DNA from: Sphingomonas bacterium | GTDB lineage: Bacteria; Pseudomonadota; Alphaproteobacteria; Sphingomonadales; Sphingomonadaceae | DNA length: 64,000 nucleotides | Direction: 5' to 3' | Assembly (NCBI RefSeq): GCF_028292945.1 | Contig: NZ_JAQGLJ010000040.1 | Span: 1 to 64,000, forward strand | Part shown: positions 8,980 through 41,058 of the stretch, piece after piece | Numbering within the stretch: position 1 is the stretch's first letter | How the letters are laid out: each line of letters opens with the position of its first letter | The notes under the pieces: generated by a model | Seen by the model: the letters and a program-made list of their open reading frames with translations, nothing else | Told to the model about the DNA's origin: nothing | The model's database searches: none | Program-made: the position numbers and the translations under genes

Positions 8980-10596
8980 TTAGAAGCTGTAGCGCGCGCC
9001 GAGCAGCGCCTGGCCGCGCAGCGACGTGTCGATCCCGTCGCCGACGCGGAACGAGTAGATGCCGACCGACGCGGTCGTGCTCAGCCGGCCGAAGTCGTGG
9101 AAATAGCCCGCCGTGGTCCCGACCGAGAGGACGTCGTCGGACCCTGCCGATGCCGGCTCGTAATAGTCGGCAAACGCCTGGACGTTGAACCCGGACACGG
9201 GGCTAAGCTGACGGGTGAAGAAGAGTTGCGCATAGTAACTCTCGTCCTCCAGCCCATAGAGGGTGATGCCGGGGCGATCGGGTCCGAACAGCTTGCGGTT
9301 GGCATAGCCGATGCCGGCGCCCGCCGTCGTCGCGCCCTTGGTCGCCGACACCACCGCGTCGATCCCGCGCGCGCGGTAACTCGCGGTCGTCACCGACTGG
9401 AAGACATTGTCGAGGCAACCGCCGGGCGCGGTGCCTGTCGTGCCGAAGGTGCAGCCGTTGAACGCCTGGGCGAACTGGTCGCGGGTGGCGATGAAGCTGG
9501 TCGGCAGGTTGGCGATGCCCTGGCGCAGCTGCCGCCCGAAGGTGGTGACGACGTCGTACACGCCGACCTGGACGCCGACCGTCGGCGCCGCGGCCCAGCT
9601 CGCCGAACCGGTGTAGCTGGTCGAGCCGTAGCGGCGGCCGACGCGCGCGGACACCGAGGTGCGCCGGCTGGGCCGCCACACGACGCCGGCATCGTAGTAC
9701 ACGCCGTCGGTGCGATAGGTGACCCGGCGGGCGGAAGCGTCGTCCAGCACGAAGCGGCCGTTTTCGTCCACCACCGGTGCACCGGTGGGGGTGAACAGCG
9801 CCGCCCGCTGGCTGGTCTCGACCTCTTCATAGCCGACGCCTGCCTGCAGCGCGACGGTGGGCGAGACGGGCGCGAGCACGTCGCCGCGAACATACCAGCT
9901 GTCGTAACGCTGCTTGAGCGCGCCGCTGGTCTCCCGCTCCCACCCGGCGCTGGCGGTCAGCCCGACCGGAAGGACGGCGCGTGGCGGCAAGGCGGCGGTG
10001 ACGCTGGCGATCTGGCCGACCGAATCGTCGTAGTAATCGAGCCGCGGCTGACCGGCGATCAGAGACGACCGGTCCGGGGTCTCCACCTTCGTATAGCCGA
10101 TCCGGTACAGCGCGTTCAGCTCGACCGGCCCGGCATATCTGGACAGCGTCGGGCCGGCGTAGAGCGAGTAGAGCTGCGAGACGTTGCGATTGTCGCCGGC
10201 GAACACGCCCGGCGCCTCGCCGCGGATGTCGGAGCGCGTGCGGGTCGCAAGTGCGCCGCCTTCCAGCATCACGCCGGGAGTGAGCCGGAACGCCGCGCGC
10301 GCCAGGCCCGAATGGACGCTGTCATCGCCGTAATCGTCGTCCCAGCTGAAGCGATGCTCGTAACGGTACGACGCTTGCGCGGTCAGTCGCGCGGTATCGA
10401 CCGCCACGTCGACGCCAGCCGCCAGCGACGTGTAGGTCAGCACGTCGCCGCTCTTCAGATCGGCATCGAACGTCTGGCTCACCTCGATATAGGGCTGCAC
10501 GGTCGTGCGCGCGCGCGCTGCCGTGTCCTGGGCAGCGACCGGGCTGGCGATCAGCGCGAGGCTTGCGGTGCCGCAAAGCAGGAATAGCTTCTTCAT
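8980..10596 (-). CDS. Outer-membrane beta-barrel protein, XrtA/PEP-CTERM-associated (TIGR03016-like)
   Basis: Signal peptide MKKLFLLCGTASLALIASPVAAQ and beta-barrel-like repeats ending ALLGARYSF; ORF-track start at 11715 is an antisense extension. Confidence 0.85.
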   Translation of the reverse strand: MKKLFLLCGTASLALIASPVAAQDTAARARTTVQPYIEVSQTFDADLKSGDVLTYTSLAAGVDVAVDTARLTAQASYRYEHRFSWDDDYGDDSVHSGLARAAFRLTPGVMLEGGALATRTRSDIRGEAPGVFAGDNRNVSQLYSLYAGPTLSRYAGPVELNALYRIGYTKVETPDRSSLIAGQPRLDYYDDSVGQIASVTAALPPRAVLPVGLTASAGWERETSGALKQRYDSWYVRGDVLAPVSPTVALQAGVGYEEVETSQRAALFTPTGAPVVDENGRFVLDDASARRVTYRTDGVYYDAGVVWRPSRRTSVSARVGRRYGSTSYTGSASWAAAPTVGVQVGVYDVVTTFGRQLRQGIANLPTSFIATRDQFAQAFNGCTFGTTGTAPGGCLDNVFQSVTTASYRARGIDAVVSATKGATTAGAGIGYANRKLFGPDRPGITLYGLEDESYYAQLFFTRQLSPVSGFNVQAFADYYEPASAGSDDVLSVGTTAGYFHDFGRLSTTASVGIYSFRVGDGIDTSLRGQALLGARYSF

Positions 10597-29833: not shown

Positions 29834-30091
29834 TTAGTGCAGGGTGCCGGTCGTGCGCGTGGCGCCAAGCGTCGCGATCAGGCGGCCGACCTCTCGCCAC
29901 CGGCAGAAATGCAGGTGATTGCCGATCCGGCGGCTGCGTTCCGCCCGACAGGCGGCTTCGTCGCCGGCATGGGCGCCGAAGCGGGCGATAAGCTGCCCCG
30001 CATCGTCGTGCGGGCGGGTGCTGGCGAGGTAGGGAAGAGTGTCTGTTTCCACTGGCGGAGACCTAGCGGATGGGTGACAGCGTTTCGGCAA
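29834..30091 (-). CDS. Conserved hypothetical small protein
   Basis: 85 aa; DAGQLIARFGAHAGDEAACRAERSRRIGNHLHFCRWREVGRLIATL resembles a small sphingomonad hypothetical family (from memory). Confidence 0.55.
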   Translation of the reverse strand: MPKRCHPSARSPPVETDTLPYLASTRPHDDAGQLIARFGAHAGDEAACRAERSRRIGNHLHFCRWREVGRLIATLGATRTTGTLH

Positions 30092-30348: not shown

Positions 30349-30966
30349 TCAGAGGGGTCGGCGCATCTGCCACACGGCGCGGCCGATCACTTCGATCGGC
30401 GCATGGGGTAACGGCGGCGCGGATGGATTGTCGCTGGACGCCACCAAAAGCAGTCGCGAGCGACGAACTCGTTTCACCATCAGCATGCCGTCCAACCGGA
30501 TGACATAGACGCCGCCGCGCGTGTCGGGCGTGCGGCTCGTCTGGTCGACGAGCAGGCGATCACCGTCCAGCAGGCCGGGCGCCATCGAGTCGCCTGCGAC
30601 TCGGATGACCGCGGCCTGCCCCCGGCTTAGGCCGAGCGCACGGGCAGTTTCGATGGAGATGCTGTCCAGCCCGAGCAGCGCTTCGTCGCCGACTGCCGAA
30701 CCCGGTCCCGCCGACGCGCTCACATCGAGCCGGGGAATACGCCACCCGGCGGCGTCCGCCTCGCCCCCGAGAACCTCCTCGGCGACGCCGAAAAAGTTCG
30801 CGAGCATCCGTCGATCCCGCTCGGCCAGTACCCGCGGGCTGCCATAGCGGACCCATTGCTGCAGATAGGCCGGCCCGCGCCCGAGCATGCGCGACAAGGC
30901 TGCAAGGCTGGTCGACGCGTCCTTTGCCAGCACCTCGAGCCGTGTTCTGGGATCGTCCGATCTCAT
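30349..30966 (-). CDS. S24-family LexA-like repressor/peptidase
   Basis: N-terminal HTH-like region, Ala-Gly cleavage candidate (SASAGPGSAV), Ser (VAGDSMAPGLLDGDRLLVD) and Lys (GMLMVKRVRR) of the dyad. Confidence 0.9.
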   Translation of the reverse strand: MRSDDPRTRLEVLAKDASTSLAALSRMLGRGPAYLQQWVRYGSPRVLAERDRRMLANFFGVAEEVLGGEADAAGWRIPRLDVSASAGPGSAVGDEALLGLDSISIETARALGLSRGQAAVIRVAGDSMAPGLLDGDRLLVDQTSRTPDTRGGVYVIRLDGMLMVKRVRRSRLLLVASSDNPSAPPLPHAPIEVIGRAVWQMRRPL

Positions 30967-31011
30967 GGCGAGACCGTAGCGTACGATTTTTCATAGACAA
31001 GTTGGATTTGA

Positions 31012-31026
31012 GAACAGAACTAGAAC
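31012..31026. promoter_or_regulatory. SOS/LexA-box-like motif (GAAC-N7-GAAC = GTTCTAGTTCTGTTC on minus strand)
   Basis: Exact match to the alphaproteobacterial GTTC-N7-GTTC box within a 91-bp divergent intergenic region. Confidence 0.6.
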
Positions 31027-31057
31027 GACAGATGTAATCTGGAGTCGGGGAAGGCCC

Positions 31058-31234
31058 ATGGAGCTGCTGTCAGAGATCAACGATTTTCTACGCCGGTCGC
31101 AGATGCCGGCGACCAGATTCGGTCGCTTGGCGGTCCGCGACCCGCGCCTGGTGGGCGACCTGAAAAATGGCCGGCAGCCGGGATCGCGGATGACCGCGCG
31201 GGTACGCGGCTTCATCGCGGGACCCGGCGCGTGA
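31058..31234 (+). CDS. Small HTH-like protein (58 aa, absent from ORF track)
   Basis: MELLSEINDFLRRSQMPATRFGRLAVRDPRLVGDLKNGRQPGSRMTARVRGFIAGPGA; stop overlaps the next GTG start (GTGA). Confidence 0.7.
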   Translation: MELLSEINDFLRRSQMPATRFGRLAVRDPRLVGDLKNGRQPGSRMTARVRGFIAGPGA

Positions 31235-31512
31235 GTACGCGTGATCGCGTCGGGCAGTTGCTCCGCGCGCTACGGCGATCCGCAGCTGAAGCCGGCTGCA
31301 CGGTGGCGGTTAGCCATTCGACGACCACTGCGTGGGCGAGCGCGACGTTCGTGGGCGCGCAGCATCGGGTGTTCGTTCGCGGCAATGCTTGGACCTGGCT
31401 CGCGGACTTGCCGGCGGCCGAGCTCCCCTTGCACGGCTGTTTCGTGGCAAGCTGCGACGTGGAGAGCGCGATCGGAGGCGCCGTGCTGACGATGCTGATC
31501 CTCGAAGAATGA
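31231..31512 (+). CDS. Hypothetical small protein, likely translationally coupled to 31058 gene
   Basis: GTG start within GTGA overlap; 93 aa. Confidence 0.6.
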   Translation: MSTRDRVGQLLRALRRSAAEAGCTVAVSHSTTTAWASATFVGAQHRVFVRGNAWTWLADLPAAELPLHGCFVASCDVESAIGGAVLTMLILEE

Positions 31513-41043: not shown

Positions 41044-41058
41044 GAACTTCCAGTGAAC
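41044..41058. promoter_or_regulatory. Second SOS-box-like motif GAAC-N7-GAAC upstream of recJ
   Basis: gaacttccagtgaac ends 11 bp before the recJ ATG. Confidence 0.35.

Follow-up and report, generated by a model that had tools for sequence, protein, structure and literature searches.

A conserved LexA-box-bearing gene trio in Sphingomonas that resembles a phage immunity switch

An S24 repressor gene and two overlapping small genes

We have analysed a gene trio in the window (the whole 64,000-nucleotide stretch of DNA under study), which belongs to a 2.79-Mb genome of the Sphingomonas group. In a tree of S24 proteins the closest relatives of the window's S24 protein include those of S. paucimobilis, S. 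sanguinis and S. parapaucimobilis. A sequence-only reading had described a cleavable S24 repressor on the minus strand, with an Ala-Gly pair and a Ser/Lys dyad, divergent from a coupled pair of small genes on the plus strand, and inspection of the open reading frames of the window locates all three genes where that reading had placed them. The divergent S24 and 58-aa genes are separated by a gap of 91 bp, and the neighbours of the trio are TamA/TamB-type and TonB-receptor genes. A consensus scan of the locus passed no sigma-70-type promoter and no terminator, and a literature search found no study of the trio locus. The features are as follows.

30349-30966, minus strand: S24 (LexA/CI-type) repressor of 205 aa with a putative N-terminal HTH region (Pfam PF00717, E 4e-15)
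30706-30711, minus strand: Ala86-Gly87 of the S24 protein
30586-30588, minus strand: Ser127 of the S24 protein
30472-30474, minus strand: Lys165 of the S24 protein
30982-30995, no strand assigned: O1, probable operator of S24 (TACGATTTTTCATA), diverged from the family palindrome TAGGA-N4-TCCTA
31012-31026, plus strand: LexA box GAAC-N7-GAAC (GTTC-N7-GTTC on the minus strand), GAACAGAACTAGAAC, within the 91-bp gap
31042-31046, no strand assigned: GANTC site (GAGTC), a putative CcrM-type adenine-methylation site, from conservation across 156 loci
31058-31234, plus strand: 58-aa Cro-like HTH protein (predicted fold), from an AlphaFold2 model, Foldseek and the codon-position pattern
31231-31512, plus strand: 93-aa protein, overlapping the 58-aa gene at GTGA, predicted alpha-beta-beta-alpha-beta-beta fold

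The repressor belongs to the Pfam family Peptidase_S24, and its closest solved relatives by PDB sequence search are LexA, UmuD and lambda CI. It also matches the PHROG transcriptional repressor family phrog_4 (9e-29) across residues 18-202, although no curated HTH model reaches its cut-off. Ala86-Gly87, Ser127 and Lys165 are invariant among 29 S24 orthologues and are spaced as in LexA, in line with the cleavable type of repressor first described.

The small genes are a coupled pair in the sense originally proposed, sharing the GTGA overlap, and the start of the third gene of the trio lies at -4, counted from where the 58-aa stop codon ends, in 23 of the 29 orthologous loci examined and at -1 in 5 of them. 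The 58-aa gene falls below a 60-aa cut-off for open reading frames, which would account for its absence from the earlier list of these. Differences at codon positions 1/2/3 number 32/16/82 for the 58-aa gene and 57/52/154 for the 93-aa gene, a pattern indicating that both evolve as coding sequence under purifying selection. The trio supplies two new conserved small-protein families, both listed as hypothetical in the existing annotation.

The AlphaFold2 model of the 58-aa protein (pLDDT 90.1) has four helices in a lambda-repressor-like HTH fold, which upholds the earlier description of the gene as HTH-like. Its top Foldseek matches are HigA2, HipB, the 434 repressor and DdrO, with TM scores of 0.6-0.7 and E-values of ~0.2 and above; these E-values make the support fold-level only, and at that level the modelled protein is a Cro-like HTH protein. 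A Pfam search returned no family for it. Direct sequence kinship of this HTH with that of the S24 protein was considered and rejected, none being found by profile comparison. The 93-aa protein is modelled with similar confidence (pLDDT 92.9) and has secondary structure elements in the order H-E-E-H-E-E. Nothing significant was returned for it by Pfam, NCBIfam, PADLOC, PHROGs, PDB sequence or Foldseek searches. Tail-completion, neck and GspM/PilO folds recurred as weak resemblances (E 0.01-0.2), which we do not use here as evidence. The conserved positions W35, S37, F40, G42 and W56 look structural, from which we would guess that the output of the locus is a protein-binding rather than a catalytic module.

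The structural matches of the 58-aa protein raise the alternative of a LexA-controlled toxin-antitoxin pair, in which this protein would act as antitoxin and autorepressor in the manner of HigA/HipB, the 93-aa protein would be a toxin produced upon DNA damage, and the S24 gene would be a separate neighbour. The antitoxins HigA2 and HipB are the best structural matches of the model, the two genes overlap in antitoxin-first order, as in HigBA and HipBA operons, where a small HTH gene also comes first and the second gene overlaps it, and in Caulobacter a link between higBA and the SOS response has been reported (PMC13384398). We nevertheless consider this reading unlikely. Generic HTH folds (434, DdrO, C proteins) match the 58-aa protein about equally well. 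The fold of the second protein is, unlike those of its counterparts in HigBA and HipBA operons, not a known toxin fold, and it has no catalytic-looking conserved set, in keeping with the negative PADLOC and Pfam searches. Paralogous and viral loci retain the S24 and 58-aa genes without the 93-aa gene, and vertical inheritance in almost every genome is not usual for pairs of this type.

Sequence elements of the intergenic gap

The sequence-only reading had also reported GAAC-N7-GAAC between the divergent genes, identified it as the alphaproteobacterial LexA box and put the probability of a chance match at 0.1-0.3%. The element is present at 31012-31026 as GAACAGAACTAGAAC, and the figure holds for this gap (77 positions x 2 strands x 4^-8, or ~0.23%). 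The motif by itself is not rare, occurring twice in the window against 1.36 expected, and the whole genome has 69 GAAC-N7-GAAC sites against 27 for a reversed control. GTTC-N7-GTTC is the published LexA motif of Caulobacter (PMC12700426) and has been published for Alphaproteobacteria (PMC8565304). The identification is borne out within the host genome, which has boxes of the same type upstream of its own lexA (two copies), recA, uvrA, UvrD-type helicase (two copies) and mmcB, where gene starts were taken from a crude gene finder run on fetched stretches. The lexA gene itself lies at C21:28414-29073, with two overlapping boxes at C21:29096-29121, and a box is found upstream of lexA in 28 of 30 lexA loci fetched from relatives, mostly within ~50 bp. 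On a LexA matrix built from the lexA boxes of the relatives together with the genome's own, the trio box scores 20.6 bits, fifth of 71 genomic sites and above the boxes of recA (12.3), uvrD (16.9) and mmcB (16.1).

Several further sites came to light in these scans. Overlapping LexA boxes with a shared half-site (GTTC-N7-GTTC-N7-GTTC) are frequent at Sphingomonas lexA promoters (double-box lexA loci L125, L126, L128-L132, L135, L141, L143, L144, L147, L149 and L150). A 255-aa gene without a Pfam match (L157:731-1498), possibly imuA, has a strong LexA box (23.7 bits) at a distance of 3 bp. At 41044-41058 the window carries an 11-bp direct repeat, TGAACTTCC-NN-TGAACTTCC, of which there are about ten more copies elsewhere in the genome (at L107, L116, L163, L167, L171 and L174, among other places), a short way upstream of isocitrate lyase, dUTPase, FKBP, PPDK, DHH-family and TPP-enzyme genes. 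This repeat fits GAAC-N7-GAAC but has a low LexA score, and is thus probably the operator of another regulator.

On the repressor side of the gap, the palindrome TAGGA-N4-TCCTA adjoins the S24 start in orthologous loci, usually followed by GACAAG, and is strictly conserved in 103 of 155 distinct gaps. It occurs at most once per genome in the 46 genomes scanned and adjoins S24 every time with one exception, G038:C55. There, at positions 9752-9765 (L295), a perfect TAGGAAAATTCCTA palindrome is distant from that genome's S24 gene, and no trio gene was found in the stretch fetched around it. The palindrome also adjoins S24 in relatives from another family (G037, G050) that have no 58-aa match. Position, near-uniqueness and one case of co-variation make it a likely autoregulatory S24 operator. 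That case is the window itself, in which O1 is degenerate, with both half-sites changed and a two-base divergence from the family palindrome, and in which the S24 protein is the sole one of 156 with Asn31 replaced (N31G) and without Arg or Lys at position 41 (R41Y). As a single co-variation case this co-occurrence is suggestive rather than a proof.

A GANTC site forms the third element. It is present in the last 45 bp ahead of the 58-aa gene at 142 of 156 loci, compared with 13 of 110 control genes of the host genome. Its outer four bases are kept and the base between them is variable (A 56, G 39, C 27, T 19), as would be expected of a CcrM site, and the host genome encodes GcrA and the RAMA domain characteristic of CcrM. 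At other SOS genes, conservation of GANTC has been explained as a by-product of the box (PMC7987155). Here it is kept in 105 of 109 gaps with a LexA box and in 43 of 46 without, and is therefore not such a by-product. The window context GGAGTCG fails the extended YGAKTCK described for GcrA activation in Caulobacter (PMC7987155); a YGANTCR context is present in 102 of 155 gaps, against ~8 in shuffles. The spacing between box and GANTC peaks at 9-10 bp.

This spacing bears on the possibility that the S24 gene is the main target of the LexA box, such that damage would raise the repressor and the small genes would answer to S24 alone. Distances from the window box are ~45 bp to the S24 start and ~31 bp to that of the 58-aa gene, and the box, being a direct repeat, has no inherent orientation. 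Box and GANTC, however, travel together on the 58-aa side, and the likely S24 promoter is already occupied by the S24-side palindrome. At some loci (L024, L026) the box ends only ~18 bp from the 58-aa ATG, so a 58-aa promoter at these loci must overlap it. We regard control mainly of S24 by the box as improbable.

It is also conceivable that GAAC-N7-GAAC is bound by S24 itself rather than by LexA, making the locus a self-contained switch outside the SOS regulon, since S24 proteins are relatives of LexA and the element lies within the shared promoter region. This is difficult to reconcile with the identical element at lexA, recA, uvrA, uvrD and mmcB, with the 46 of 57 loci outside the Sphingomonas clade that have the S24 gene without the element while mostly retaining the palindrome, and with phage counterparts that have the palindrome and not the element, and we regard it as highly unlikely.

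Distribution in relatives and on phage-like replicons

The S24 gene is present in 36 of the 36 same-genus genomes first searched, with the 58-aa and 93-aa genes alongside in nearly all of them. Nearly every genome examined from the Sphingomonas family carries the putative switch as an ordinary chromosomal gene set, and members of the 58-aa family were found in 207 of the order's 301 genomes. About half of the named loci have the TamA side of the neighbourhood in common. Conservation of the box in orthologous gaps had been set as a point on which the sequence-only reading could fail. The strict box is kept in 27 of 29 such gaps, the two others reading GAAC-N7-GATC. Our wider sample comprised 80 named loci picked by 58-aa similarity, and hence biased, together with more loci from the order and ~40 from other genera; the box occurs in 98 of its 155 distinct gaps compared with ~0.5 in shuffles, counts that are not independent, the sampled loci being related to one another. 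A tree of 156 S24 proteins was built by a brief maximum-likelihood search; many of its branches are weak, and we rely on its main split alone. On its Sphingomonas branch 89 of 99 loci have the strict box and 10 of 99 have GAAC-N7-GATC; on the sister branch the box is found in 11 of 57 loci only. The box is thus fixed in the Sphingomonas clade. Many other genera hold the trio without a LexA box, which implies that LexA control is not essential to the module. A chance origin of the trio box is ruled out by its conservation in orthologous gaps and across the S24 tree.

Related gene pairs occur on phage-like replicons. A 46.6-kb Bradyrhizobium replicon (NZ_CP094518) carries an S24 gene divergent from a homologue of the 58-aa gene (52% identical) across an 87-bp gap that holds three TAGGA-type sites, amid exonuclease VIII-like, resolvase-like and helicase-like genes. 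The same divergent pair is present on several IMG/VR contigs, two of which (L383 and L385) again have three TAGGA-type sites. L385, though from IMG/VR, may be bacterial in origin; its S24 is very closely related, and it carries a GANTC site. The LexA box is absent from the gaps of NZ_CP094518 and of the IMG/VR pairs examined. The gap of the window contains one altered palindrome, and those of some other genera and viral loci contain two or three operators. Among the chromosomal loci, 20 of 46 gaps lacking a box contain at least two TAGGA-type operators, versus 9 of 110 gaps that have a box (Fisher p 1e-6, an optimistic value given related sequences). By itself the phage parallel would fit transfer in either direction.

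The trio lies outside any prophage or phage genome, between its TamA/TamB-type and TonB-receptor flanks, and no phage structural genes adjoin it among the neighbourhood ORFs and annotation checked; it can therefore be said to work like a cI/cro immunity region, not to be a prophage. Relatives of S24 and the 58-aa protein on phage-like replicons could be taken to mean that the trio is a decaying prophage remnant without present function, which we consider extremely unlikely in view of its presence across Sphingomonadaceae genera and of the 58-aa family across the order, the shared TamA side, the purifying selection on both small genes and the lack of phage structural genes beside it.

Other genomes contain a second S24/58-aa locus that lacks the 93-aa gene (L356, L359-L371). 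It carries box and GANTC in almost every case, which points to the S24/58-aa pair and its promoter elements as the stable core and to the 93-aa gene as an attached, probable output. At L356 and L370 an ORF of ~290-300 aa then follows, which by eye resembles a WYL-type regulator.

A candidate domesticated switch under LexA

From sequence comparison the locus is, in our assessment, a real, conserved, SOS-linked and phage-like switch, and is neither a prophage nor a known toxin-antitoxin pair. It is probably a domesticated cI/cro-type immunity switch under LexA, with a probable cell-cycle methylation input. The original description of a compact DNA-damage-responsive switch gains support from the conservation of the box and its match to the boxes of the genome's own SOS genes, which predict induction by damage; it stood as regards box and trio, and missed the S24-side palindrome, the GANTC site, the phage parallels and the absence of the LexA box from most trios beyond Sphingomonas.

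In such a switch S24 would be a CI-like repressor that binds the TAGGA-N4-TCCTA-type operator beside its own start, from where it would repress its own promoter and, given its location, that of the divergent genes. The 58-aa protein, with its predicted HTH fold, would be a Cro-like partner counteracting S24. In Sphingomonas, as sequence and conservation show, a LexA box occupies the operator position next to the 58-aa gene, and the 58-aa/93-aa operon would accordingly be LexA-repressed as well. DNA damage would then release the operon twice, through cleavage of LexA and through RecA-stimulated self-cleavage of S24, which the invariant Ala-Gly, Ser and Lys lead us to infer. The GANTC site would allow CcrM methylation, and possibly GcrA, to couple promoter activity to replication-fork passage. 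As for output, the 93-aa protein is the probable host-specific product, and the gene overlap suggests that translational coupling coordinates its synthesis with that of the 58-aa protein. The economical reading of the gaps is a lambda-type operator set of which, in Sphingomonas, a position on the 58-aa side was ceded to LexA. It is possible, and we advance it tentatively, that a single domestication of a phage immunity switch took place at the root of the Sphingomonadaceae, and that Sphingomonas rewired one operator position from the switch's own repressor to LexA and kept the CcrM site, giving a three-input switch (two cleavable repressors and fork passage) that controls a new small-protein family.

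Like the OR region of phage lambda (cI, three operators, cro), the trio has a cleavable-type repressor divergent from a small HTH gene across a short gap, and its phage counterparts show up to three operators that share half-sites. Unlike OR, the trio is not in a prophage, has a host LexA box at one operator position in Sphingomonas and adds a coupled 93-aa gene, and we claim no kinship with Cro at the sequence level. Host LexA is put to use by the phages CTXphi (RstR/LexA) and coliphage 186 (tum). GIL01 and others also borrow it (PMC9437464), and the parallel with these phages lies in a phage-type repressor and LexA acting on one lysis-side promoter; the trio differs in that it is chromosomal, is fixed throughout a bacterial genus and has an additional CcrM-type site. 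With the Caulobacter SOS regulon (PMC12700426) it shares the type of LexA box and, as with SidA, a very small and predicted damage-controlled product, whereas an S24 partner regulator is not described there and the 58-aa and 93-aa proteins match no named family searched.

Phages borrowing LexA are already known. A phage-type switch retained almost throughout a bacterial family, its operators visibly exchanged between clades for a LexA box, would be a rare natural record of regulatory rewiring, and the combination of SOS control with a conserved GANTC would tie DNA damage to replication-coupled methylation at one promoter. Both small-protein families are open to direct testing in culturable Sphingomonas, of which S. 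sanguinis NBRC 13937 and S. echinoides ATCC 14820 (L190, L261) have the consensus form of the locus.

A further short conserved ORF lies 3' of the S24 gene (29834-30091, minus strand), ending ...GNHLHFCRWREVGRLIATL...GTLH. It has no match in Pfam, and an ORF resembling it is found at the equivalent place in ~36 named loci.
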